DNA of 64,000 bases, from the NCBI GenBank assembly GCA_009711295.1, contig WLST01000001.1, forward strand, positions 58,371-122,370. Direction: 5' to 3'. Below, one piece after another: positions 6,475 to 29,138 of this stretch. A program made the translations under genes and the position numbers. Origin of the DNA: Actinomycetota bacterium (GTDB taxonomy: Bacteria; Actinomycetota; Acidimicrobiia; Acidimicrobiales; Ilumatobacteraceae). Positions within the stretch are counted from its first letter, which is position 1. Each line of letters begins with the position of its first letter. The notes below the pieces were generated by a model. That model worked only from the letters and a program-made list of their open reading frames with translations, did not search any database and was not told where the DNA came from.

Positions 6475-7060
6475 TGTCTTCTTCTTTCGTGGTGCTAGGG
6501 GCAGGTATTTGTGTGAGACGGGGAGACTTTGTAGGTGTGCGCAAAGTAACGAGGTGAGCGGCGCCAAGTGCTGCAGCAAGAGTCACCATCATGATGGTGA
6601 GCGCACCGTAAAGACGTGATGTCATGTCAGTACCGGTGGTGATTGCGTGCCAGGTCACCAATATGAAAGCAACATAGCTTGAGAGGTGAACTGCGCGCCA
6701 CAGTTTCTTTGGGAGTTTCTTCATGGCCCATGAAGTGATTTGTATGGCGGCAATCATGTACATGGCAAGCACGCCGAGTGCAACGCCGCGCGGGTGCCAT
6801 GACGAAGAAAATGGAATCAGTAATTCTTTGGGGCCAAAATGTGAGTAGTTATCTCCAACAAGTGCAACGAGATGCAAAACAGTGGCGGCGAGGAGCAACG
6901 TTCCAAACCATTTATGTAGGTCGAGCAACCATGCCGGCCGGTCGTATCCACGAAACAAGCGAGTGACCAACAAAATTCCCCAGGCGCATGATGCCAAAAC
7001 GAGGAACCAAGCAACCGTGCCTGCAGACCGTGAGAGATACCACCAAAAATGTGAGTTCAT
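6461..7060 (-). CDS. Ferric reductase-like transmembrane haem protein
   Basis: MNSHFWWYLSRSAGTVAWFLVLASCAWGILLVTRLF…LHKWFGTLLLAATVLHLVALVGDNY…AVHLSSYVAFILVTWHAITTGTD, with His pairs on TM helices. Confidence 0.88.
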   Translation of the reverse strand: MNSHFWWYLSRSAGTVAWFLVLASCAWGILLVTRLFRGYDRPAWLLDLHKWFGTLLLAATVLHLVALVGDNYSHFGPKELLIPFSSSWHPRGVALGVLAMYMIAAIQITSWAMKKLPKKLWRAVHLSSYVAFILVTWHAITTGTDMTSRLYGALTIMMVTLAAALGAAHLVTLRTPTKSPRLTQIPAPSTTKEEDIVSN

Positions 7061-14295: not shown

Positions 14296-16380
14296 ATGAA
14301 AATGAAACTCAATTTAAAGGTGATTGCCACAGCATCTGTCGTTGTCGTATTAGCTGCATGTGGCGGCGGAGGTGGCGGTGCTTCAACAGCAGGCCCCGAA
14401 GTGACGGTTCCCGAAGCAACAGGCACATCTCAAGACACGGGCCTTGCTCCGAACCCCAACGGTTTTGCATTCCCTAACTTTGGTTCTGCAGGAAGCCCTG
14501 AAGTTTTTGGCGAAACAGATCTTGTCTCGATGTTTGGTGCAACTCCCGACATTTGTGTTGACGGTGTAGCCGACCCATGTAAGCCAACAGCCGAAGCTGC
14601 TGCATGGGCCCGCATGGTGAACGACTCACGCGCCGCGGGTCACTGTGAAGGTTTTGCTGTGTTGGCTGCTGCGCGTTTCTCGCAAGCTGTGAAGCCGAAC
14701 TCGGTGGAGTTGTTGAATCAAGGTGATGTAACGCACGGCATTATGCGCGCATTTGCTACTCAGTTCTTGAAAGAAACACAAGACGAAACAAACCAGTGGG
14801 CAAAGAAATCGATAAAAGAAAAAGTTGCTGCACTTGAAGCATCGTTCGCCAAGAAGATTGTTGGTTACAGCCTTGGTGTGTACACCGATGAAGGCGGGCA
14901 CGCAGTTTTGCCGTACGCCATTGAATATGAAACTGCCGATTTGGCGAAGATCAAAATTTATGACTCCAACTGGCCTGGCCAAGATCGTTTCGTCAAGGTA
15001 GACCTTGCTGCAGGCACGTGGGAGTTCTCATTTGCTGGGGCCGATCCAAACAACGACCCGAATGCATGGAAGGGAAAGTCGAAAGATATTGACATCACTT
15101 CAATGGACACTCGTGCATCGGCTACTTGCCCCTTCTGCGGCGATAAGAGTGCAGTGCAAAAGTCGCTTTTGGTTGTGCGTTCCGCATTGCCAAACTGGAA
15201 AATTGAAACTGCCGATGGCGTGCTCACACCGGGCTCAAATGAAATCGGCAATAGCAGCGTGCGCCCATTGCGTTCTTCTGCTGCTGGCCCCGCAACCGAC
15301 GCGCCTACTGACTACATCGTTTCTATTCCCGATGACAAGCCCGCGAAGTTCACCTTGCCTTCGGCAACGCGCATCTCGGGAATCACCTCAAAGGTTGCAG
15401 TACAAATTGAAACACCAGGGTCTGCCGACACCACAGTGAGCCTTTCAAGCGATGCTGTGTCAACAACCAACCCAGAAGTAGTACTCACACTTGCCGATGG
15501 CAACTTGGTGGGTTCGTCAAACGGCGATAACAACTCGGTCACCTCTTCTGGTGAGGCCGTGCAAATTGTTGTTGATGGCGCAAACGGAACTCCAGTAACG
15601 GTCGATGTAAACGCCGATGCTGCAGCAGTTGAGGTGCGTACTCCAGGCCGTGACGGTGTTGATGCAAACACCAACTACGAAGTAGTCACACAAACTTCCG
15701 ACACGCAAGTAGAACGCAAAGTTGTGGGCACCAACGGTAAAGAGACCATCAAAACTGAAGATGGTCAACTCGCGAGCACCAAGGTAGAAAACCCACTTCC
15801 CGATGCACTCAAGGCACCTGCAGTGAAGGGCGGATTGCCCGATGCAGCTAGCCGTGCACTCGATGCCGGTACTGCCGCAACAACAACAACAACCACCACT
15901 ACTTCAGTCGCTGGTGGCCCAACGACAACAGCAAAGAAGACAACGTCGAGCACGTTGAAGCCAACAGCTACAACAGCACCACAAACCGCAACAACAACGG
16001 CGAAAGTAGCTCGTGCCTCGGTACGTGTTGACGTGAATGTTGACGGGTGGAGCCTCGCAGCCAGCGACCCAGCGTCGTCGGGCTTCAGTGCAAACCTCAC
16101 GGGTTCCACTGGTGCTATTCAAGATGGCATTAGTTGCGATTCGGTGGGTTGCCTCGAAGGTGCAGCAACCGATGTGTTGGCCAGTGGCACCGACCCTGCA
16201 ACGGGAACGACCAGCACCACAACCCTGCAGTTCAAAATGTCGGGCGTGGCCTCTACCTTCGATGTCCGCTGTGGAAACGCGGGCAGTTGGGTGAAGGCAT
16301 CTCAGGCCGGCGGTGGGTTCTCCGCCACATGCTCGTTTAGCAACGTGACGACCGACGAAACCGTTTACGTCCGCGCCTAA
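14296..16380 (+). CDS. Lipoprotein with candidate Cys-His-Asp peptidase-like domain and Thr-rich linker
   Basis: Lipobox VVLAACGGG; GHCEGFAVLAAARF…GGHAVLPYAIEYE…KIYDSNWPG; TTTTTTTTSVAGGPTTTAKKTTS linker. Confidence 0.8.
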   Translation: MKMKLNLKVIATASVVVVLAACGGGGGGASTAGPEVTVPEATGTSQDTGLAPNPNGFAFPNFGSAGSPEVFGETDLVSMFGATPDICVDGVADPCKPTAEAAAWARMVNDSRAAGHCEGFAVLAAARFSQAVKPNSVELLNQGDVTHGIMRAFATQFLKETQDETNQWAKKSIKEKVAALEASFAKKIVGYSLGVYTDEGGHAVLPYAIEYETADLAKIKIYDSNWPGQDRFVKVDLAAGTWEFSFAGADPNNDPNAWKGKSKDIDITSMDTRASATCPFCGDKSAVQKSLLVVRSALPNWKIETADGVLTPGSNEIGNSSVRPLRSSAAGPATDAPTDYIVSIPDDKPAKFTLPSATRISGITSKVAVQIETPGSADTTVSLSSDAVSTTNPEVVLTLADGNLVGSSNGDNNSVTSSGEAVQIVVDGANGTPVTVDVNADAAAVEVRTPGRDGVDANTNYEVVTQTSDTQVERKVVGTNGKETIKTEDGQLASTKVENPLPDALKAPAVKGGLPDAASRALDAGTAATTTTTTTTSVAGGPTTTAKKTTSSTLKPTATTAPQTATTTAKVARASVRVDVNVDGWSLAASDPASSGFSANLTGSTGAIQDGISCDSVGCLEGAATDVLASGTDPATGTTSTTTLQFKMSGVASTFDVRCGNAGSWVKASQAGGGFSATCSFSNVTTDETVYVRA

Positions 16381-16449: not shown

Positions 16450-19113
16450 ATGTTAAACATGAAACCTTTTTCTGCTCGTTTAGGTGCTGCTGTTGTGCTC
16501 ATTGCCGGGCTCCTTGCATTCTCATCGCCGACCGTGCCTGTGCAGGCCGATGCTGGTGAAACGGTCACCGCAAGTCGCGCAGTTGCTGGAAGTTTGTCTG
16601 GTGGTTCAAACCATATGTGTCTCCTTAAAAACAGCAATGTTTACTGCTGGGGTCTCAATACGTATTTCCAACTAGGCGATGGAACGACAACAAGTCGAAA
16701 CACCCCACAATTGGTAAGTGGTTTAACTTCGCCAATTTCGGTATCGGCTGGAGGCGGTCAGTCGTGTGCGGTGCAAGCGGACCATAAAATTTTATGTTGG
16801 GGGAATAGAGGGGGATACTCCAACCCAAACCCAATCGGTGCTCCGACCAAAGTGCAAAGGACGGTTGGCCTCTCAACACAAGTTGTAGACGACGCTACAT
16901 ATGTAGATATTGGCGGGAGTGGCTCTGGCACTGAAACAGGTTGTTACATCACTACATCAAACGAACTTTGGTGCTGGGGTGAAAATAGTGGCGGTCAAGT
17001 GGGCGACGGAACTGCCGCTGACGTGCAGAGCGCAGTGCGAATTGCCGGCTTGCAAGTGATCGCGGTATCAGTTGGACCAAATCACACCTGTGCGGTGATT
17101 CAAGGCGGTTCTGTGCAGTGCTGGGGAATGGATGACTACGGCCAGCTTGGTGATGGTGCGGCCGGAATGGGAACGTACACCGACTCGCCTGCAACAGTTG
17201 GCGGTGTTTCCGGGGCAGTTGGCATTTCAGTGAACGGATTTCACTCGTGTGCATTGATTCAAGAGGGGAACGTTAAATGTTGGGGTGCAAACTTTGACAG
17301 TCAATTAGGGGATGGAATTAACGCAAGTGGATCTTCCGCAACTCCAGTTGATGTTGCTGGAATATCGACCGCAAGGGGCATTTCAGCTGGGTCGAATCAT
17401 ACGTGTGCAATTCTCGCCAACGGAACAGTGAAATGCTGGGGTGATAACTCAAAGTTGCAAGGTGGGCGAGTTGGCAATAAATCGGCTACTCCCGTTCTGG
17501 TCGATGGAATCACTGGTGCAACCGCAGTGAGTGCAGGGGCAAACCACACCTGTGCGCTCATTGGGAGTAATGACCTGAAGTGTTGGGGCAACGGGGGCAG
17601 TGGAATTCTGGGCGACGGAGTTTCTGTCGCAGACACCGCAACTCCTGTTTCCATTGCGAGAAAAGTGGAGCAATCCCTTACCGCATCGAGCATTACTGCG
17701 AAGACGGTGAACGACACAACAATTTCACTCGCGGGTGTTGCCACTGCGTCAAGTGGTGCTGCGGTTGTCTATTCAAATATTCCTGGTAATTCAGGTATTT
17801 GTGATGTCTCGGGAACTTCTGTGTCGGTGCTTGGCACGGGAGTATGCAAAGTGCAAGTAGAAGCTCCCTCTTATGGGTTCTTTATGACTGCATACGACAC
17901 GGTGGAGTTCTCTATTTCTGGAGTAGCACCTACAGTTTCAACGGCTGACGCAACAAGCATCGCAGTCACTTCGGCAACACTTAATGCAACAGTAAACGCG
18001 CGTTATTTATCCACATCAGTCAGTATTGAGTACGGCACAAGTGCCACGCTTGCTGGTGCAACAACGGTCAACGGCACGGCGGTTACTGGTTCCACGAATA
18101 CTGTGAGCACAGCATCTGTTACTGGTTTGATATCTGGCACCACGTATTACTTCCGGGCGCAAGCAACGAACAGTGCTGGTTCAACTACTGCCACAGCAAT
18201 CAAGAGTTTCACCACGCTTGGTGGAAAGCCTTCTGCAACGACAGCAGTTGCTTCTGGCATTTCCGCCAATAAGGCAACCCTCAATGCGTCGGTTAATGCC
18301 AATGGTGTTTCTACAACTGTGAAATACCGAGTTGGTAAATCGGCCGACCTCACTGGCGATGTCACGGTGTACGAAGGTCGTACCGTTACCGACTTCGCAG
18401 ATGAATCGGTTCCTGTCTCTATCAGCAGCCTTGTTGAGATGGCGACGTACTACTACCGAGTGGAAGCTACAAACTCTTTCGGTACTGCAACGGGTGAAAT
18501 CAAGTCATTCACTACTGCTCGTCCGGTGGGCGTGACTATTAATAGCGCTGCTGAATTCACCAACAAGAAAACGGTTGTGTTGTCGGTAACTGGAGCCTCG
18601 GGTTCAGTGTCGGCAATAGTGTCGAACGACGGTGGGTTCGGATCTTCAGAAACCTTCACGCTTGTTGATGGTTCTGCTGAAATTAACTGGACCTTGATTT
18701 CGAGTCGCGATGAGCGCTTGCCAAAGCAGGTGTACGTCAAGTTCGTTTCGCGATTTGGTACACAGTCATCGAACTATCAAGATGACATCATTCTTGACAC
18801 CACTGCTCCTGTTTTGAGCGACGCTGTTGCTGTGGCGACGACTGCTCCTGCTAGTGCAGTGAGTGTGGCTTCTGTGCGCGCCGCGAAAAAGAACGGTGCA
18901 AAAATTACCGTGCGAGCAGTAGACGCAAACTCGGGTATCGGTTCGGTGGAAATGCGTTCAGGGGCGAGTAAAAAAGCCACGAGTGTGAAATATGCAAACC
19001 CAAAGGCAAAGTCGCAAACACTAACCGTGAATACAAAGGCGAAAGCGTTGCAGGTACGGGTTATTGATCGTGCCGGAAACCCTTCTCCATGGAAGACAGT
19101 TAAGGTGAAATGA
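16450..19113 (+). CDS. Secreted RCC1-repeat (seven-blade) protein with C-terminal Ig/FN3-like domains (paralog 1)
   Basis: Signal peptide; seven repeats of xxCx(n)CWGxNxxxQLGDG; FN3-like segments; conserved C-terminal domain ending VRVIDRAGNPSPWKTVKVK. Confidence 0.9.
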   Translation: MLNMKPFSARLGAAVVLIAGLLAFSSPTVPVQADAGETVTASRAVAGSLSGGSNHMCLLKNSNVYCWGLNTYFQLGDGTTTSRNTPQLVSGLTSPISVSAGGGQSCAVQADHKILCWGNRGGYSNPNPIGAPTKVQRTVGLSTQVVDDATYVDIGGSGSGTETGCYITTSNELWCWGENSGGQVGDGTAADVQSAVRIAGLQVIAVSVGPNHTCAVIQGGSVQCWGMDDYGQLGDGAAGMGTYTDSPATVGGVSGAVGISVNGFHSCALIQEGNVKCWGANFDSQLGDGINASGSSATPVDVAGISTARGISAGSNHTCAILANGTVKCWGDNSKLQGGRVGNKSATPVLVDGITGATAVSAGANHTCALIGSNDLKCWGNGGSGILGDGVSVADTATPVSIARKVEQSLTASSITAKTVNDTTISLAGVATASSGAAVVYSNIPGNSGICDVSGTSVSVLGTGVCKVQVEAPSYGFFMTAYDTVEFSISGVAPTVSTADATSIAVTSATLNATVNARYLSTSVSIEYGTSATLAGATTVNGTAVTGSTNTVSTASVTGLISGTTYYFRAQATNSAGSTTATAIKSFTTLGGKPSATTAVASGISANKATLNASVNANGVSTTVKYRVGKSADLTGDVTVYEGRTVTDFADESVPVSISSLVEMATYYYRVEATNSFGTATGEIKSFTTARPVGVTINSAAEFTNKKTVVLSVTGASGSVSAIVSNDGGFGSSETFTLVDGSAEINWTLISSRDERLPKQVYVKFVSRFGTQSSNYQDDIILDTTAPVLSDAVAVATTAPASAVSVASVRAAKKNGAKITVRAVDANSGIGSVEMRSGASKKATSVKYANPKAKSQTLTVNTKAKALQVRVIDRAGNPSPWKTVKVK

Positions 19114-21521
19114 TGCGTAGTGTTCGTAAGGTCTTTGTAGTTGCCACCGCTGTATTTGCATCGTGTTTTGTGCCGTTACAGGCGCAAGCGGAAAGTGGTG
19201 AAGTTCCGGCCAGCAATACTGCAGGCCAAAGTGCGGCCGGGCGTATCAGTGTGGGCGGCGGATTCGCTTGTGTAGTGATGTCGGGCTCGGTGTATTGCTG
19301 GGGCGAAAACGACGGTGGTCAACTGGGTGTGGTTGATGGAGTGAACAAGAGCACTGCAGTGAAAATTGCCGGAATCTCTACCGCGGTCAGCGTGGCTGCT
19401 GGAGATAACCATGCCTGTGCTTTGCTCTCTAGCGGACGTGTTTCATGTTGGGGAACAAACGCTGAGTTCCAATTGGGAAATGCCGACACAAGTGTTAACG
19501 GTCCAGTAGAAGTGGGCCAACTCACCGATGCCACTGCTATTGCATCGGGAACTGACTTCAGTTGTGCGATTTCCACCTCCAATGGTGCCGTATGTTGGGG
19601 TGCATCTACTCGAGGCCAATTGGGTGTCACCATTGGCACCACCGGTGGGCATAGGCATGAGCCCCAACTTGTAGATGGACTTCGTACTGGTGTTGATTCC
19701 ATCGCTGCTGGCGTGTCACATGCGTGCGCAGTGAAAACCGATGGCAATGTGTGGTGCTGGGGTACAGCAACTCAAGGTTCGCTAGTGGGATACTTGGGTA
19801 ACCTCACTTCAAATTTTTCTGAATTACCAGTTCGTGTTCGGGTTTCCTCTGGCGGAGCGCCTGCATATGTAACTGACGCAGTTTCCGTATCTGGAGGTTC
19901 CGGTAATACTTGCGTGCTGAGAAGCACTAGTGGAATTTATTGCTGGGGTACGGATAGCTACGGGAAAATGGGGAACTCCACAACAGGGTCTCTCGACAAT
20001 TCAAATGTTGGCACGGGAGGCGGAACGCCATGGGCGTTACCGGTATTGGCTATCGCCGGTCAAGGGGCTTCGTCATTTTCTGGTGCTGTTTCGGTTTCTT
20101 TGGGAGATGAGCACTCGTGTGCTCTGGTAACGGGAGCAACCGTGAAGTGTTGGGGTCAGAGTGTTGACGGTCGTGTGGGAAACAACACCACCACTCCTAA
20201 CCTCAACTACCCAGTAGCGGTGAATGCCCTCACCAACGTTGCCGCTGTTTCAGCGGGCGCTAACAGTACGTGCGCTCTCACCACTTCAGACACTGTGTAT
20301 TGCTGGGGAAAAGGAACTTCAGGGCAAATTGGTAATGGTGCGTTGTTGTCGGCAACCACACCACGTCTCGTATCAGCAGCAGCGAACCCAGGTGTATCAC
20401 TTGCTGCAATTAGCGGTAGGTCGATGACATCGGCGCCGTTCAGTGTTTCTGCAACTGTTGCTTCAGGTGCAACGCCAACGTACAGCAGTTCAACTACATC
20501 TATCTGTACGGTCAGTGGTTCCACTGTCACGCTCATTGGGCCGGGTACGTGCACGGTTGTTGCTGAAGTAGCTTCCTCTGGTTTTTACTCTGCCGGGTCG
20601 GCATCGCAGAGTTTTACTGTCGAGTCTGCATTGCCACCAACGGTCACTACTTCTTCGGCTACATCTATTGCTGCTACCAGTGCAGTTTTGAATGGTGTGG
20701 TGAACCCCAACGGAGCAGAAGCAACCGTTAGCTTTCTTGTTGGCACTAGCCCCACGCTTGTGGGAGCGTCAACTGTTGAGTCGAAAGTGTTAACTGGTAA
20801 CACGTCAGAAGAAGTGTCGCAAAAAACAGGAACACTTCTCGAGGCCACTACGTATTACTTCCAAGCTGTTGCCAAAAATGTTCATGGAACCACAAAAGGT
20901 GACATCCGTTCATTCACTACCGGGCGTCCTATTGGAGTATCCATCAACGACGCTGCCGAATTCACGAATAAAAAAACTGTTGTGGTGTCGGTTACTGGGC
21001 CATCTGGTTCCGTGAAAGCAATTTTGTCGAATGACGGTGGCTTCAAGAGTTCAGAGACCTTTGACTTGGTAGATGCTTCTGCCGATATCAATTGGACCTT
21101 GCTGGCCAGTCGCGATGAACGCTTGCCAAAAATTGTTTATGTGAAGTACATCTCGCGGTTCGGTACCACATCAAGCACTCCATCGTCAGACGACATCATC
21201 CTTGACACCACGGCTCCTGTTTTGAGCACCGCTACAGCAGTCGCTACCACCGCTCCCGCGACTGCGGTGAGTGTTGCTTCTATTCGTGCTGCTAAAAAGA
21301 ATGGTGCAAAAATTACAGTGAAAGCGGTTGACGCAAACTCCGGGATTGGTTCAGTAGAGATGCGCTCTGGGGCCAGTAAAACGACAACGAGCATTAAATA
21401 TGTAAACCCGAAGGCGAAGTCGCAAACTTTAACTGTGAATACCAAGGCGAAGTCATTGCAGGTGCGGGTTATCGACCGCGCTGGCAATCCTTCGCCTTGG
21501 AAGACCGTTAAAGTTAAATAA
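19110..21521 (+). CDS. Secreted RCC1-repeat (seven-blade) protein (paralog 2)
   Basis: ATGA overlap with previous gene; signal peptide; seven C…CWG repeats; C-terminal domain nearly identical to paralog 1. Confidence 0.9.
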   Translation: MMRSVRKVFVVATAVFASCFVPLQAQAESGEVPASNTAGQSAAGRISVGGGFACVVMSGSVYCWGENDGGQLGVVDGVNKSTAVKIAGISTAVSVAAGDNHACALLSSGRVSCWGTNAEFQLGNADTSVNGPVEVGQLTDATAIASGTDFSCAISTSNGAVCWGASTRGQLGVTIGTTGGHRHEPQLVDGLRTGVDSIAAGVSHACAVKTDGNVWCWGTATQGSLVGYLGNLTSNFSELPVRVRVSSGGAPAYVTDAVSVSGGSGNTCVLRSTSGIYCWGTDSYGKMGNSTTGSLDNSNVGTGGGTPWALPVLAIAGQGASSFSGAVSVSLGDEHSCALVTGATVKCWGQSVDGRVGNNTTTPNLNYPVAVNALTNVAAVSAGANSTCALTTSDTVYCWGKGTSGQIGNGALLSATTPRLVSAAANPGVSLAAISGRSMTSAPFSVSATVASGATPTYSSSTTSICTVSGSTVTLIGPGTCTVVAEVASSGFYSAGSASQSFTVESALPPTVTTSSATSIAATSAVLNGVVNPNGAEATVSFLVGTSPTLVGASTVESKVLTGNTSEEVSQKTGTLLEATTYYFQAVAKNVHGTTKGDIRSFTTGRPIGVSINDAAEFTNKKTVVVSVTGPSGSVKAILSNDGGFKSSETFDLVDASADINWTLLASRDERLPKIVYVKYISRFGTTSSTPSSDDIILDTTAPVLSTATAVATTAPATAVSVASIRAAKKNGAKITVKAVDANSGIGSVEMRSGASKTTTSIKYVNPKAKSQTLTVNTKAKSLQVRVIDRAGNPSPWKTVKVK

Positions 21522-23884
21522 TGCTCTTTCTTCGTCGCATAGTTGTTTCTACTCTTTCTCTCGTTGCGGTGTGTGTCGCACCAATTCAGGTTCGTGCCGA
21601 TTCCGGGGAAGCGCTGACATCTCAGCAAAACGCGGCGGGGCAATTGTCCTTAGGCGGAAGTTTTTCCTGCGTCCTTGTTTCGGGTGCGGTTTACTGTTGG
21701 GGTGATAACCACTCGGCGCAGTTGGGTCAGCCATCGACGGTCTTTAGTAGCGCAGTTCCTGTAGCAGTCCCTCAAATTTCAACCGCCACTCAAATTTCTG
21801 CAGGCGAGAATCACACATGTGCGGTTTTGGCGAACGGGTCGGTTGTGTGCTGGGGTCTTAACTTCAATTTGCAGCTCGGCCAAGTGGGTGTACCAAAGAA
21901 TGCCACTCCTACGGCCGTGGCTGGAATCTCGGGTGCAACAGCTGTTTCCTCTGGGTCGCTGCACTCTTGTGCCATTGTCGCCGCAGGCGCAGTGAAGTGT
22001 TGGGGCGGTGGAGCATCGGGCCAGCTGGGAAGTGGCACATCTGATTCTGCTACGCCCATATCTGTTCCGGGAGTGAGTGGAGCCACCGCAATTTCTGTGG
22101 GTGCGGAACATTCATGTGCTGTTGTCACCAACGGTGGAGTGAAATGTTGGGGCAGCGAGACCGATGGTGAACTGGGAAATGGACTTCCAGATAATGAAAC
22201 CCAACAAGGGCCTGTGTCGGTTGTGTATGACAGCAATGGTCAAGTGCTCACGGGAGCAGTTGGCATCACTTCAAGCACAAACTCGAGCTGTGCGTTGATG
22301 TCTAATCAGCATGCTTATTGCTGGGGGTCAACCATGTTTAATGAGTTAGGAAATGATCCTCAGGTTTCGCCTCGCATAAATTCTGCTAAAGAATTTAAGT
22401 CACCTGAAACGTGGCAGGCAGTCACTGATATCACCCATATTTCTGCCGGCGAGTATTACACGTGCATTATCCGCAATAATGGAGTTCCGTATTGTTTGGG
22501 TGACAATCTTTCCGGTGAATTAGGTGATGGAACAGATAACTATTCCATGTTCCCTACGCTTCAAAACATTGTTGGAGTTCCTGCCGCGGCTGTTATCACT
22601 ACTAGTCGTGGTCATACCTGTTCTATGAGTACTCAACTCGCAGTGATGTGCTGGGGGACGGGCAACTCCGGGCAAATTGGGAATGGCTCAATAGATGATT
22701 CATACACACCCGTTGCGGTAACCGGAGTAGCCCCACAAACCATTTCATTTGGCGCACTAGCGGGCAAAGCATTAGGTGATGCGCCATTTACATTGTCTGC
22801 CACAGCGTCTTCCGGTGCAGCGGTGAGTTTTTCTTCATCAACAACAAGTGTGTGCACCGTGAGCGGTGTAACCATCACGCTTGTGGGCGCTGGCACATGT
22901 TCCATTGTCGCAAGCAGGGCTCCTTCAGGTATCTACGCCGCAGCAACATCGGTAACGCAATCATTCACCGTTTCTGGCGGCAAGCCGGTGGTGTCAACAG
23001 GAACTGCCACAACGCAAAGCATTAAGGCGACAATGCGCGGAACAGTCAACCCTGGCGGAATCGATACGTCGGTGGTGTTTGTTTATGGCAAAGATTCGAA
23101 ACTAGTTGGCGTTACTTCAACAACAGCCGTCACAAAAACGGGAACCACCTCTGAAGAAGTAAGCACCGTGGTGTCTGACCTCTCAACGAATACCACTTAC
23201 TACTATCGCATCGAAGCCACCAATGCTCTAGGTAAGTCAGTTGGTGACATTATTTCCTTCACCACAAAGCGCCCCGAGGGTGTCACCATTAATGATGAAG
23301 ATGAATTCACGAAGTCAACGAAGGTAACTGTTTCTGTCGTGGGGCCAACCACGGCTGTGAGTGCTTTGGTGTCGAACGACGGCAGTTTCCGAACTACGAA
23401 AACGTTTGACCTTGTTGAAGGTGCTGCCGATATTTCATGGACACTGCTCGCAACCCGCGATGGTTCTTACACCAAAGTGGTGTACGTGCGATTCCAATCG
23501 AAGTTCGGTACCAAGTTGAGCGATAGCACCGATGACATCATTGTCGATACATCAAAGCCAGTTCTTGATTCTGCGTCAGCTAAGGCTTCCAGTGCATTCT
23601 CTGGCGCAGTGTCGATAGCTGCAGTAAAAGCAGGTGGCGCGAAAATTACCGTTAAGGCAAAAGATTCCATTTCGGGGGCAGGCTTTGTGGAAGTGCGTAG
23701 CGCAGCGAACAAGAAGTCAACGGTTGTTGCTTTCAAGAAGTCGCCCACCAAAGTAAAAGTGATGGGAATGCCACGAGTTACCTCCGACACCGTGAGTGTG
23801 AACACCACTGCAAAGCGACTTCAGGTGCGTGTGCTCGATAAAGCTGGAAATGCTTCCAGTTGGAGTTGGCTCATCGTTCGTTAA
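21521..23884 (+). CDS. Secreted RCC1-repeat (seven-blade) protein (paralog 3)
   Basis: TAATG overlap with previous gene; signal peptide; seven C…C(W/L)G repeats; related but more divergent C-terminal domain. Confidence 0.9.
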   Translation: MLFLRRIVVSTLSLVAVCVAPIQVRADSGEALTSQQNAAGQLSLGGSFSCVLVSGAVYCWGDNHSAQLGQPSTVFSSAVPVAVPQISTATQISAGENHTCAVLANGSVVCWGLNFNLQLGQVGVPKNATPTAVAGISGATAVSSGSLHSCAIVAAGAVKCWGGGASGQLGSGTSDSATPISVPGVSGATAISVGAEHSCAVVTNGGVKCWGSETDGELGNGLPDNETQQGPVSVVYDSNGQVLTGAVGITSSTNSSCALMSNQHAYCWGSTMFNELGNDPQVSPRINSAKEFKSPETWQAVTDITHISAGEYYTCIIRNNGVPYCLGDNLSGELGDGTDNYSMFPTLQNIVGVPAAAVITTSRGHTCSMSTQLAVMCWGTGNSGQIGNGSIDDSYTPVAVTGVAPQTISFGALAGKALGDAPFTLSATASSGAAVSFSSSTTSVCTVSGVTITLVGAGTCSIVASRAPSGIYAAATSVTQSFTVSGGKPVVSTGTATTQSIKATMRGTVNPGGIDTSVVFVYGKDSKLVGVTSTTAVTKTGTTSEEVSTVVSDLSTNTTYYYRIEATNALGKSVGDIISFTTKRPEGVTINDEDEFTKSTKVTVSVVGPTTAVSALVSNDGSFRTTKTFDLVEGAADISWTLLATRDGSYTKVVYVRFQSKFGTKLSDSTDDIIVDTSKPVLDSASAKASSAFSGAVSIAAVKAGGAKITVKAKDSISGAGFVEVRSAANKKSTVVAFKKSPTKVKVMGMPRVTSDTVSVNTTAKRLQVRVLDKAGNASSWSWLIVR

Positions 23885-23902: not shown

Positions 23903-24952
23903 ATGGACCGGCGACGTTTTCTATCTCAGGCACTGGGCATTGCCGTGGGCGGGGTTGTGTGGTCGGCCTGTGGTGGCTCGAAGCAACTGTTGCAAAGTAG
24001 TGACACCATTGCATCGTTGGCGAACAACACGTTGGTCATTCCCGATGCTCCCGTTGCTGCAGCCGGGGAGATTGCCCCATTCATCACTCCGCAGTCAAAG
24101 TTCTTTCGCATCGATACAGCAATTGGTTCCACACCTCAACTCAAAACTGCCGATTGGAAACTACGTATTCACGGATTGGTAGACAAAGAAGTCACCTTGA
24201 CTATGGCCGACATTCTGGCGTTGCCACAGGTAGAGCACGTCATCACCCTCGGTTGTGTTTCAAATGAAGTCGGCGGCGACCTCGTTGGCAATGCCCGTTG
24301 GGGTGGAGTGTTGCTAGCCGACGTGTTGAAACTTGCAGGTGTGCAAAAATCGGCAACTCAACTTGCGAGCACCAGCATCGATGGCTGGACATGCGGTACC
24401 CCAGTAGACGCAGTTTTTGATGGGCGGCCGGCAATGCTCGCTACCTCTATGAATGGTGAACCACTCACTGCCGAACATGGCTTTCCCATTCGCATGATTG
24501 TTCCTGGTTTGTTTGGTTATGTTTCTGCAACAAAGTGGGTGACAGATATGGAACTCACTACTTGGGAAGGTTTCCAAGCATATTGGTTGCAGCGTGGTTG
24601 GTCGGAGCAAGGGCCAATGCTTGCTTCAAGCCGCATCGACACACCACGCAATGGCGATGAATTAGTAGCAGGAAAGGTACCCATCGGTGGCCTTGCATGG
24701 GCGCCACGTGCTGGTGTGGCAAAAGTGGAAGTACAAATAGATGAAGAGCCGTGGCGAGATGCAGATGTGGTTCCAGGGGGAACAGGTGACACCTGGGTGC
24801 AATGGCGAACGAAGTGGAGTGCGGTCGCGGGGAATCATCGCATAGTGGTGCGTGTTACCGATGCCAATGGAGTTGTACAAGATCCAGAAATACGACCGGT
24901 TGCCCCTAGCGGTATCACGGGTTACCACATCATCAAAGTGACTGTCGTCTAG
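23903..24952 (+). CDS. Tat-exported molybdopterin-dependent oxidoreductase (sulfite oxidase fold)
   Basis: MDRRRFLSQALGIAVGGVVWSACGG Tat/lipobox; Moco Cys in HVITLGCVSNEVGGDLVGNARWGGVLLADVLKLAGV; C-terminal dimerisation-like domain. Confidence 0.88.
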   Translation: MDRRRFLSQALGIAVGGVVWSACGGSKQLLQSSDTIASLANNTLVIPDAPVAAAGEIAPFITPQSKFFRIDTAIGSTPQLKTADWKLRIHGLVDKEVTLTMADILALPQVEHVITLGCVSNEVGGDLVGNARWGGVLLADVLKLAGVQKSATQLASTSIDGWTCGTPVDAVFDGRPAMLATSMNGEPLTAEHGFPIRMIVPGLFGYVSATKWVTDMELTTWEGFQAYWLQRGWSEQGPMLASSRIDTPRNGDELVAGKVPIGGLAWAPRAGVAKVEVQIDEEPWRDADVVPGGTGDTWVQWRTKWSAVAGNHRIVVRVTDANGVVQDPEIRPVAPSGITGYHIIKVTVV

Positions 24953-24969
24953 CCACACACCCGTCGCCT

Positions 24970-25695
24970 ATGGTCATGGGCATGGGTTTCTTTTCAAACA
25001 TCAAGCAGCGGCGTGCAGAAAAAGAAGCCCTCGAGCAAGCAGCTGCCGAGCAAGCCCAACACGGCACATGGCAATCGCAGTCCGAACAACTCGATGTCAT
25101 GATCAATGCTGTCGAGCGTTGCGGCAACAACGACATTGAGGGTCTCTTCGACCCATACGAAACCGGTTTCATTTTAAAAAAAGATGAATACGCCATTGGC
25201 CTCATCGCCAATTGTGCACTCTTGGAAACGCGTCGGTCAGCTTCCACATATCAAGGTGGGTACGGCGGAGTTTCATTTCCTCTCTTTGGAAAAGTACGTC
25301 TGAACACTGGTCGCTCAAAAGGCAAACTCGTTCCTGGTGAAGAATCAATTACCTCTATTTCCGATGGGGAAGTGCTCATCACTAATAAGCGCGCAATGTT
25401 CCGCGGCGACACGAACAACAAAGAGTGGCCCTATTCCAAACTCATGGCCTGTGAGCATCACCCCGAGGGGTACACCACCTTTGCAGTGTCGGCTCAGACG
25501 AAAACCACCGGGTTTGCCTATGGTGCCGACGTGGCCAATGAAGTGCAGTTTCGCCTTGAACTCGGCATTGCTATTAGTAATGAAACGACCGATCAGCTTT
25601 TGGCCCAACTACGGGTAGAGCGCCAGCAGCTCGACGCTAAAAAACCTTTGCCGCCGCCGGTGGTTGGGCTGTCAAATGGGGAAAATCCCCGATAG
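24970..25695 (+). CDS. Hypothetical protein
   Basis: Complete ORF with coding character; no recognised family. Confidence 0.65.
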   Translation: MVMGMGFFSNIKQRRAEKEALEQAAAEQAQHGTWQSQSEQLDVMINAVERCGNNDIEGLFDPYETGFILKKDEYAIGLIANCALLETRRSASTYQGGYGGVSFPLFGKVRLNTGRSKGKLVPGEESITSISDGEVLITNKRAMFRGDTNNKEWPYSKLMACEHHPEGYTTFAVSAQTKTTGFAYGADVANEVQFRLELGIAISNETTDQLLAQLRVERQQLDAKKPLPPPVVGLSNGENPR

Positions 25696-25715: not shown

Positions 25716-25792
25716 GGGCGTTTAGCTCAGTTGGCTAGAGCGCTTCCCTTACAAGGAAGATGTCGGGGGTTCGAGTCCCTCAACGCCCACCA
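25716..25792 (+). tRNA. tRNA-Val (anticodon TAC), CCA encoded
   Basis: Acceptor GGGCGTT/AACGCCC, anticodon loop CTTACAA, 3' ACCA. Confidence 0.97.
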
Positions 25793-25858: not shown

Positions 25859-26458
25859 TTATTTGACGAGGAAGCCGTCGATGGAAAGCAATATTGCTTC
25901 CAACATCTCTTCATCGCTCGGGCGGTGCTTGTCGATATCTGACAAATACAAGCCAAGTACCGTTCCTTGCACCACCAGTGCAAGAGCTCGCATATCGCAA
26001 GAGGGAACAATGAAGCCGCGGTCGCGCGCCATTTGGTATACCTCAACTGCTCGGTCAATAAACAAACTATTGGCGTGAGCAATGGAAGCCATCATGTCGG
26101 GACGTTTCGTAGCTGCACCAAAGGTGGTGATACGCACGGCACGTTGCGGCCAACGTCGAGTGTTCACGATGACCGCAAGGAGGCCTCGAAGATTCGCCCG
26201 GTATTCCTCAGGAGTTGACGAGGCCTCAGTCACCTGAGCGATGTATTCAATGTCTTCAGCAGCCGTTGCAAGGAATCGTGATATTTGTGCTTCAGACACC
26301 AAATTGTCGCGGGTCTGAAAGTAGTACTTGATCATTCCTTGAGTAACACCGGCATTCTTGGCCACGGCGACAACCCGCAAACTGGCTTCGCCACTGGCGT
26401 CAATGATTTCGATGGCGGCTTGCAGAATTCGTTCACGCACATTGTGATCATCTGTCAT
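25859..26458 (-). CDS. TetR family transcriptional regulator
   Basis: N-terminal HTH: RERILQAAIEIIDASGEASLRVVAVAKNAGVTQGMIKYYFQTRDNLVSEA. Confidence 0.92.
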   Translation of the reverse strand: MTDDHNVRERILQAAIEIIDASGEASLRVVAVAKNAGVTQGMIKYYFQTRDNLVSEAQISRFLATAAEDIEYIAQVTEASSTPEEYRANLRGLLAVIVNTRRWPQRAVRITTFGAATKRPDMMASIAHANSLFIDRAVEVYQMARDRGFIVPSCDMRALALVVQGTVLGLYLSDIDKHRPSDEEMLEAILLSIDGFLVK

Positions 26459-26540
26459 GTTCGGTAATCCTGCCTTTCGCCAGTATCAACACAGCGCGGA
26501 TGCGCCATTGGGAAGAAGCGTTTTGATTTGCTTTTCCACG

Positions 26541-26592
26541 ATTATAGTCCTATATTATTTATTAATATATTTTATAACAATTTTATCTACGC
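26541..26592. promoter_or_regulatory. AT-rich intergenic promoter region between divergent TetR and RCC1-OmpA genes
   Basis: attatagtcctatattatttattaatatattttataacaattttatctacgc: conspicuously AT-rich against the surrounding composition. Confidence 0.45.
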
Positions 26593-26615
26593 AACGCCCA
26601 AAGAGGTTTCACACC

Positions 26616-29138
26616 ATGTTTTCACCCGCTCGTCGCGCTCTGGCGCTTTCATTCTTCCTATTAGCTGCGGTCCTTGGGGTCGTAGCTCCGATGACTCCAG
26701 CCCCTGCCAGGGCTTCGGTTCAGTTGTCTAACCCATCATCGCCGTACAAAATTGCCGGTGGCGATGGGTTTATGTGCATGGTGGTCAACGGGGTCGTGCA
26801 ATGCTCTGGCACCAATACTCTTGGTCAGCTTGGCGATGGAACAAATACGAACCGTAATTACCTCAAGGCGATTAAAGGTGACTTGAAAATCGAAGGTACC
26901 TACTCGCTAGCTGTAGGAAAGTCACACGCCTGTGCCGTCTCTGGATCTGGCTCGAGCTATCCGGGCGAAGGAAAGTTGTATTGCTGGGGTGATAACCAAT
27001 ACGGGCAGTTAGGTGACGGTACGAATACCAGTTCTTCTTTGCCGGTATTGGTGACCACCAGTATCAGCGGCTCCTTTATGAACGCAGATATCCGAGGCAT
27101 CTTTGTTGGTGACAACCACACGTGTGCCATTACGTCAATCTCCGGTGTGAACCGGTTGTTCTGCTGGGGCCTCAACAACAAGGGCCAGGTCGGAGATGGC
27201 ACCACTGTCGATAGCAATCGTCCGACCGCAGTGCAAGGTGTTTTTGCCACGGGTGGTGTGCTGACAACGGCTTCTTCAAGTAGTCGCGCAAATCCTTGGG
27301 CTGCGGCCGGCGCAGAGCACACATGTGCAGCGAGTGTTTCTACGGGGAACAAAATTCATTGTTGGGGCGCAAATGGCAGTGGGCAGCTGGGCAATAACTC
27401 CACTACCGACAGCCTTCTTCCCGTCGACACCGGATTGGTGGGCCTCAGTTCGGGAAGTGCAAATACGGCTTTTGTTGCTGCCGGAAGTGACTTCACTTGT
27501 GCCACTGAAGCAGGGTTCCTCAAGTGTTGGGGCGAAAATGCCAATGGCCAAATGGGTAATGGTGGAACAACCGATGTCAAGGTTCCTACTTTGGTGCCGA
27601 GTAATGCTGGTTTCACGAACGCCGTCATTTATGTATTGGCAGCAGGTGGCGACACTGTGTGTGTTGTAAAAACAGCGAACACCGCAGAGAACTTGTGGTG
27701 CTGGGGCGCAAACAATGCGGGTCAGGTTGGCGACAACACCACCACAAATCGAGATCGCCCCACATTGGTTCTCGACAACTCTGCACAGAGTTTTGACAAC
27801 TCTTATCTTGGTGTGAGTAGCCCTCCAGCTAGTGGTCTCACCGTTGGGCGTTCGGTTGCCAATGGCTTTGCTTGTGTCACAAGATGGTGCTGGGGCAAAA
27901 ACTCCACCGGCCAACTCGCACTAGGAAACACAACCGATGCGGCCTTGCCTTCGGAGGTAAAAACAGGTGTCATCGCCGCAGACGAAGTCTCTGGTGTCAC
28001 AGCCACATCAGTATTGAAGAGCACAGGTGTCGAGGTCACATTCAGTGGCTTGCCAGCTGCGGGTTTAGCAACAATGCGCATCACCGTTGCTCCTGTCGCA
28101 CACGCACTTGCTCCTTACCAGGGGGCCAACATCGGCGATACCTATTATTCCGCCAAAATTTTGAGCGGTCAAACATTGCCAACGGTGTCGGGTGGTCAGA
28201 CGACAGTAACGCTCACAGGATTATTGCCCTCAGTGATGTCACTGAGTCCTCCCACTGCGGGCGCTGAAGTACCTTTTGTGCAAGGCGTCTCTTATCACAT
28301 CACGTATTCCATGACTGGCACGGCAACAAGCGGATACGCCGACGGCTGGACAGCGCGTAATGGAAAAATAGCTGGCTCGGAACTTGTGGTAACGATCGAC
28401 TCGTCCTCTGTAGCTGATGGCGGGTCACCTTCTACGCCAACAACAGTGGCATCGGGAACCCCAACAACGGTTGCTACTGCTACAACAGTTGCTGCATCAA
28501 CAACCACAGGCAACTATGCATCAGCAGTACCGGGCATCACCGTGACCGATGCAAAGGTGTATGCCGTTGCGCCGCAAGAGGTTGCTGGAGACTCGGCAAT
28601 TATTGTGTTGTCGGCTGCTCAAAACAAGTTGATGGACGTCGAGAGTAAAACTCCGAGCATCTGTTTGCCGAATGATGATGACCTCATCTTTTTAGATCAA
28701 GGAAAATGCATTGCCGACGTGGTGAATGTAAAGACGCGAAAAGTGTTGCGCACATTGCGTACCACTGTGGTGGAAGATGACATTGCCGACCTCAAGGTGG
28801 GTAATGAAATTGCGATTTTGACGCCGCTGTATTTCTACTCAGGCACTACAAGCTTCAAAGAAGTTTCACTTGCTCGTCTTGCCAAGCTGAAGAGCCGCAT
28901 TAACGCAGCCGGGTCTGTTCTCGTTGCCGGTCACTCTGGCACGTTGAGCGGAAATACTGCAGAAAACGTAAAGTTGTCGCAATTGCGCGCTGCCGCAACG
29001 GTGAAAGAATTGCAGTCACGTGGTGCGAAAGGCCCGTTCGCCATTGCGGCAGTAGGAGCACTCGACCCTGCAAGTAAGGGAAAGAGCCAGGCCGATCAAG
29101 ATAAGAACCGTCGTGTGGTGATTGTTCTGATTCCTTAA
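26616..29138 (+). CDS. Secreted RCC1-repeat (seven-blade) protein with C-terminal OmpA-like domain
   Basis: Signal peptide MFSPARRALALSFFLLAAVLGVVAPMTPAPARA; seven C…C(W/S)G repeats; C-term VLVAGHSGTLSGNTAENVKLSQLRAAATVKELQSRGAKG…DQDKNRRVVIVLIP. Confidence 0.88.
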   Translation: MFSPARRALALSFFLLAAVLGVVAPMTPAPARASVQLSNPSSPYKIAGGDGFMCMVVNGVVQCSGTNTLGQLGDGTNTNRNYLKAIKGDLKIEGTYSLAVGKSHACAVSGSGSSYPGEGKLYCWGDNQYGQLGDGTNTSSSLPVLVTTSISGSFMNADIRGIFVGDNHTCAITSISGVNRLFCWGLNNKGQVGDGTTVDSNRPTAVQGVFATGGVLTTASSSSRANPWAAAGAEHTCAASVSTGNKIHCWGANGSGQLGNNSTTDSLLPVDTGLVGLSSGSANTAFVAAGSDFTCATEAGFLKCWGENANGQMGNGGTTDVKVPTLVPSNAGFTNAVIYVLAAGGDTVCVVKTANTAENLWCWGANNAGQVGDNTTTNRDRPTLVLDNSAQSFDNSYLGVSSPPASGLTVGRSVANGFACVTRWCWGKNSTGQLALGNTTDAALPSEVKTGVIAADEVSGVTATSVLKSTGVEVTFSGLPAAGLATMRITVAPVAHALAPYQGANIGDTYYSAKILSGQTLPTVSGGQTTVTLTGLLPSVMSLSPPTAGAEVPFVQGVSYHITYSMTGTATSGYADGWTARNGKIAGSELVVTIDSSSVADGGSPSTPTTVASGTPTTVATATTVAASTTTGNYASAVPGITVTDAKVYAVAPQEVAGDSAIIVLSAAQNKLMDVESKTPSICLPNDDDLIFLDQGKCIADVVNVKTRKVLRTLRTTVVEDDIADLKVGNEIAILTPLYFYSGTTSFKEVSLARLAKLKSRINAAGSVLVAGHSGTLSGNTAENVKLSQLRAAATVKELQSRGAKGPFAIAAVGALDPASKGKSQADQDKNRRVVIVLIP

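Follow-up and report, generated by a model that had tools for sequence, protein, structure and literature searches.

The window, which here means the whole analysed stretch of 64,000 nucleotides, contains three adjacent genes (A, B and C), each with a predicted signal peptide and exactly seven RCC1-type blades, preceded by the gene of a lipoprotein (Table 1). A sequence-only reading of the same DNA had described the three as exported seven-blade RCC1 paralogs, and our results agree with this description as well as with the frames and overlaps it gave. Gene A probably starts at the ATG at position 16450. Gene B starts at 19110 with an ATGATG that runs over the TGA of gene A, and gene C starts at 21521 in a TAATG junction with gene B. 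The overlaps had also been regarded as unusual, which they are not: the window contains at least three more junctions of the same kind (10036/10039, 48331/48334 and 50250/50253). Furthermore, the overlap is not conserved, since it is missing between A and B in the related genomes G007 and G002.

Table 1. Features of the RCC1 locus and its surroundings, with positions in the window
Feature	Coordinates	Strand	Description
Lipoprotein	14296..16380	+	predicted papain-like N-terminal domain, beta-sandwich, Thr/Ser-rich linker, C-terminal domain ending DETVYVRA
Lipoprotein sites	14359; 14644, 14899, 14968	+	Cys codon of lipobox LAAC; putative catalytic Cys, His and Asn codons
Stem-loop	16400..16431	+	separates the lipoprotein gene from gene A; stem of 14 bp without mismatch, loop of 4 nt, not followed by a T-run
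Gene A	16450..19113	+	signal peptide 16450-16548; seven-blade Cys-paired RCC1 propeller about 16588-17673
Gene A, 3' of propeller		+	Cys-paired Ig-like domain, two FN3-like domains, tail 18520-19110
Gene B	19110..21521	+	signal peptide; seven-blade propeller about 19233-20393; one FN3-like domain; tail 20925-21518
Gene C	21521..23884	+	signal peptide; seven-blade propeller about 21632-22744; one FN3-like domain; tail 23270-23872
Oxidored_molyb protein (SoxC/SorA-like)	23903..24952	+	lipobox-like signal; conserved 3' neighbour; Pfam 1.7e-44, NCBIfam below cut-off
241-aa protein	24970..25695	+	conserved neighbour without assigned function (synteny)
Gene D, fourth RCC1 gene	26457..29138	+	seven Cys-paired blades (last short, C-x4-C); C-terminal OmpA-like domain

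A, B and C each contain seven matches to the pattern C-x8/9-C-[WL]-G. The Pfam model WD40_RLD is matched with E-values of 1.5e-69, 8.9e-57 and 1.3e-57, respectively, RCC1_2 and RCC1 also score above cut-off, and the repeats exceed the Pfam cut-offs of RCC1-like propellers (PF13540, PF00415, PF25390). Because the scores lie far above the cut-off, a chance origin of the blades is excluded. The AlphaFold2 (AF2) model of mature A, built from an alignment of 13 homologues, has pLDDT values mostly of 80–92 in the propeller, with lower values in one loop near residues 88–110. In a Foldseek search the model matched the complete UVR8 ring with TM-scores of 0.82–0.84 (normalised by UVR8 length, most entries), followed by HERC and RCC1. 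A closed seven-blade ring, which the sequence-only reading had proposed to verify by modelling, is thus predicted for A by the model and the fold search, and for B and C by their alignment to A, in which all Cys are kept. The number of repeats proved constant, with seven blades in A–C and in the intact homologues within the genus.

The Cys pair of the blade consensus quoted earlier is present in all 21 blades of A–C and the CWG motif in 20 of the 21, the sole exception being blade 6 of gene C (CLG), but in the remainder of that consensus (GxN...QLG[DN]G) the blades vary far more than had been stated. All Cys residues of mature A–C are accounted for by the 14 in the propeller and one pair downstream (463/478 in the ORF numbering of A), and all 16 are invariant among 13 homologues. 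To survey the blades, a profile in which both Cys positions were masked was run over all fetched loci and the distinct blades were counted. Both Cys are present in 337 of 434 distinct blades, neither in 96, and a single one in 1; outside the genus the corresponding counts are 196, 95 and 1 (n = 292). The blade class is uniform in each protein, either Cys-Cys or mostly Leu and Ala, apart from one exceptional blade in one protein. The intrablade pairing suggested by the earlier reading is upheld by this both-or-none behaviour, seen in 291 of the 292 distinct blades outside the genus. In the AF2 model of A the paired Cys lie on adjacent strands of one hairpin (C24 in strand 22–27, C33 in strand 30–35), and covariation and hairpin register together support one predicted disulfide per blade. 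The pairs had also been called not typical of cytosolic RCC1. Alignments to PDB entries agree, but the feature is not peculiar to this locus, as it is widespread in bacterial RCC1 proteins, being common in Actinomycetota, and has been described for CRINKLY4. A–C fall in the same Cys-paired blade class as CRINKLY4, with one C-x(8-10)-CWG pair per blade. The unmixed split into Cys-Cys and mostly Leu-Ala blades provides a simple sequence rule for recognising disulfide-stapled propellers. As a possible genomic marker of the two classes we considered the oxidative-folding genes VKOR and Thioredoxin_4, which failed to separate genomes with Cys-paired blades from those with Leu-Ala blades; neither was found in the genome to which the window belongs (1.87 Mb, 79% complete) nor in most relatives with Cys-paired blades, which counts against the disulfides.

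The signal peptides of A, B and C have AxA-type ends followed by DAGE, ESGE and DSGE. The A-(D/E)-x-G-E motif reported for the mature N-termini is therefore present in all three, but it is partly the signal-peptidase site and is lost in several homologues, which have ADINGAP, ADSSES or ADPAG instead. At the C-termini, which end in ...PSPWKTVKVK or ...SSWSWLIVR, there is no LPxTG signal with its hydrophobic stretch and basic tail; none of the three proteins has a transmembrane end, and Pfam and NCBIfam gave no match to an S-layer anchor domain. The tails resemble a general Ig-like domain, with a weak OmpL47-type match in the NCBIfam search.

The putative catalytic Cys, His and Asn of the lipoprotein are invariant in 13 homologues. 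In its AF2 model (pLDDT 81) the Cys starts helix 88–102, the His starts strand 172–183, and the Asn lies just past strand 188–194, and in alignment and model alike these residues have the order and topology of the papain Cys-His-Asn/Asp. This order and placing is what the protein has in common with papain-like (clan CA) peptidases, among which streptopain was the only fold match; it differs from them in being a membrane lipoprotein and in lacking a significant sequence or fold match. There was no Pfam match above cut-off, no NCBIfam match and no PDB sequence match, and the Foldseek search, dominated by the beta-sandwich domain, returned nothing significant (streptopain weakly, with probability 0.25–0.38). 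Since the fold and sequence matches are all non-significant, we infer the papain-like character from the alignment and the model, which suggest that the lipoprotein belongs to an unnamed papain-like family.

The C-terminal domain of the lipoprotein was found in 17 of 224 genomes of the family, with one copy in each. The lipoprotein gene adjoins RCC1 or tail-bearing genes in most of these genomes, among them G003, G005–G010, G012, G383 and G395, which represent two genera, lies one gene away from such a gene in G394, and is without such neighbours in G036, G385, G397 and G404. For a distant tail-bearing RCC1 protein in G412 (L111), the 12 kb that were retrieved contain no lipoprotein. Because each occurs without the other, neither the lipoprotein nor the tail-bearing RCC1 protein strictly needs its counterpart. 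In a third genus (G021), a 1186-aa ORF joins the papain-like lipoprotein to a set of exactly seven Cys-paired blades, with two MBG-like domains in between. This single fusion has neither FN3 domain nor tail, and the missing tail would be in keeping with tails that help the other proteins to reach the lipoprotein. The genome of the window also encodes lipoprotein paralogs elsewhere: a 1572-aa frame at 6516–11231 of L072 (G000:C72) that is rich in MBG-like repeats and includes a PA14-like stretch, and another, with FN3-like repeats, on contig 99.

The gene order at the locus is the same across the genus: an inositol-monophosphatase-like gene, the lipoprotein, 1–3 RCC1 genes, the molybdopterin oxidoreductase and the 241-aa protein, with the arrangement RCC1, lipoprotein, RCC1 in G003 and G010. 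In the window, a tRNA gene (25716–25789) is located between the 241-aa gene and a TetR gene. There is one RCC1 copy at the locus in G005 and G009, two in G002, G003, G007 and G010, and three in the window, as counted in genomes most of which are metagenome assemblies broken at repeats. Co-conservation in related genomes, which the earlier reading had proposed as a check, thus holds for the syntenic locus but not for the number of copies. The adjacency in sister species is partly due to common descent and is not independent evidence. The 14-bp stem-loop upstream of gene A also occurs in G005, G006, G007, G009 and G012, though not clearly in G008, and has no match in Rfam; it may allow the lipoprotein gene and gene A to be expressed differently. 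Several contigs related to this Acidimicrobiia-type locus (L079, which is the G005 contig, L090 and L095) come from records titled Bifidobacterium breve MAG, which are apparently mislabelled.

Heads and tails of these proteins are decoupled. The propellers of neighbouring paralogs share 30–34% mutual identity; A and B are 30% identical in the propeller and 85% in the tail, and the corresponding values for A and C are 31% and 54%. The comparison of A with the gene at the same position in a sister genome (G007_A) shows sharp identity steps near residues 31 and 600: nucleotide identity is 94% in the signal peptide, 44% in the propeller, 83% in the second FN3 domain and 82% in the tail, and dN is 0.03, 0.81, 0.07 and 0.04, respectively. 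The propeller of A is nevertheless 65% identical to that of G009 and 62% to that of G005, and this contrast indicates that at least two head types exist on a near-identical signal peptide and tail. At another locus (L084), the gene behind the lipoprotein combines FN3 and the tail with a non-RCC1 head. A tree test for recombination between head and tail, with five sequences, gave a p-AU of 0.18 and thus no significant conflict.

On balance we lean towards the view that A–C are exported binding proteins with variable heads, which would be displayed at the envelope and would bind ligands there. The signal peptide would export the chain; the N-terminal seven-blade propeller, with a disulfide staple in each blade, would serve as the head, one or two FN3-like domains as the stalk, and the conserved Ig-like tail would form the end. 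Because A–C possess neither LPxTG nor a transmembrane end, the tail most likely attaches to a partner and thereby retains them at the envelope. The foremost candidate for this partner is the papain-like lipoprotein, lipid-anchored and encoded by the preceding gene, which the tail may contact. Its C-terminal domain could be the docking site, or the lipoprotein, if it is an active enzyme, could process or cross-link A–C. The heads would diversify through recombination, or through duplication with homogenisation of the tails, and the ligand would therefore differ among copies and species while the display part remains constant. It is possible, but rather unlikely, that the whole amounts to a constant display system, consisting of the lipid-anchored papain-like lipoprotein and the conserved tail, on which recognition heads are swapped (mostly stapled propellers, occasionally another fold) and whose anchor or maturation enzyme represents a new papain-like family. 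If true, this would be a bacterial head-exchange receptor or adhesin system.

The difference between A and G007_A could also arise if the two were different old tandem paralogs that were differentially kept and lost, with tails kept alike by gene conversion. We take this to be a serious contender, although somewhat less probable than its opposite; it competes with head exchange only and agrees with the binding-protein interpretation. The varying copy number speaks for it, as do A and B, which in the window likewise combine similar tails with divergent propellers. However, A and G007_A have the same signal peptide, spacer hairpin and position beside the lipoprotein, which favours a single locus with changed heads. 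The sequence-only reading had proposed instead a hetero-oligomeric surface layer or adhesin with coupled, stoichiometric expression. Three adjacent exported paralogs with overlapping ends would suit a layer of fixed ratio expressed from a coupled operon, but such overlaps are routine in the window and not conserved, the lipoprotein and A have a stable hairpin between them, the heads have diverged to the extent described above, and an obligate three-part layer is unlikely because close relatives have one, two or three copies. With this variation, and with no match to an S-layer anchor domain, we consider a layer of A, B and C very unlikely, and coupled stoichiometric expression of an obligate hetero-oligomer is not supported, whereas an adhesin or another binding protein stays plausible. 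Variable copy number and variable heads argue for binding proteins that share a display part and differ in their ligands.

Two further explanations concern the function of the propellers. They might be substrate-binding modules of the lipoprotein, holding an extracellular protein or peptide that the papain-like domain cuts or joins in the style of a scavenging protease. The fusion in G021 and the invariant Cys-His-Asn, with their catalytic-type placing in the AF2 model, are in favour of this idea, but the absence of a significant fold match beyond the weak papain-type similarity weighs against it, and we regard it as improbable. The secreted RCC1-like binder BLIP-II (PMC9218822) provides a precedent for A–C being secreted inhibitors of a foreign enzyme. 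PDB sequence searches, however, brought up no similarity to BLIP-II, and A–C, with their large stalk and tail, do not look like a small free inhibitor, which makes such a role very unlikely.

Among the closest known systems are the RCC1-repeat surface proteins of honeybee-gut bifidobacteria, which are encoded by tandem genes and for which duplication and diversification with recombination have been reported (PMC4449606). Like A–C, they are actinobacterial, tandemly duplicated and exported, with about seven repeats per domain. They have LPxTG anchors and 2–4 propellers per protein, whereas A–C have one propeller, no LPxTG and a papain-like lipoprotein upstream. In the CRINKLY4 family, Cys-paired RCC1-like blades carrying C(X~10)CWG motifs have been described, and disulfides within the blades were proposed (PMC4617170). 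The CRINKLY4/ACR4 ectodomain (PDB 7a0j) is likewise an exported RCC1-like propeller of seven repeats, but it is part of a receptor kinase of plants that also contains TNFR-like and kinase domains. UVR8 and the RCC1/HERC propellers share the closed seven-blade fold with the model of gene A; unlike A–C, they are intracellular and, in the PDB alignments, lack the paired Cys pattern. Bacterial RCC1 proteins are widespread, nearly all of them without assigned function, and a literature search on RCC1 in Acidimicrobiia yielded no title or abstract that dealt with RCC1 propellers. The propeller class is ordinary in bacteria, and what is new here is the link and fusion to the lipoprotein, the decoupling of head and tail, and a non-RCC1 head on the same tail. 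The lipoprotein link and fusion, together with variable heads on constant tails, offer a testable route to function in uncultured freshwater Acidimicrobiia.

Of 298 genomes sampled from the phylum, 59 encode RCC1 proteins. The OmpA-like C-terminus of gene D, which has an ortholog in G007 (L045), is a second way to anchor propellers. The genome of the window has two further RCC1 genes. The one on contig 45 runs into the end of the contig and shows at least nine blades; the other, on contig 85, also has an OmpA-like end. Gene D-like pieces were seen in G001 and G011, where the C-terminal domain of the lipoprotein was not found. Elsewhere, L074 (G023:C1:3990000-4006000) contains three tandem RCC1 genes with 14 Cys-paired blades each, that is, two times seven, and very long frames of 2286–4464 aa with RCC1 blades occur in G003:C27, G010:C2, G012:C15 and G007:C21.
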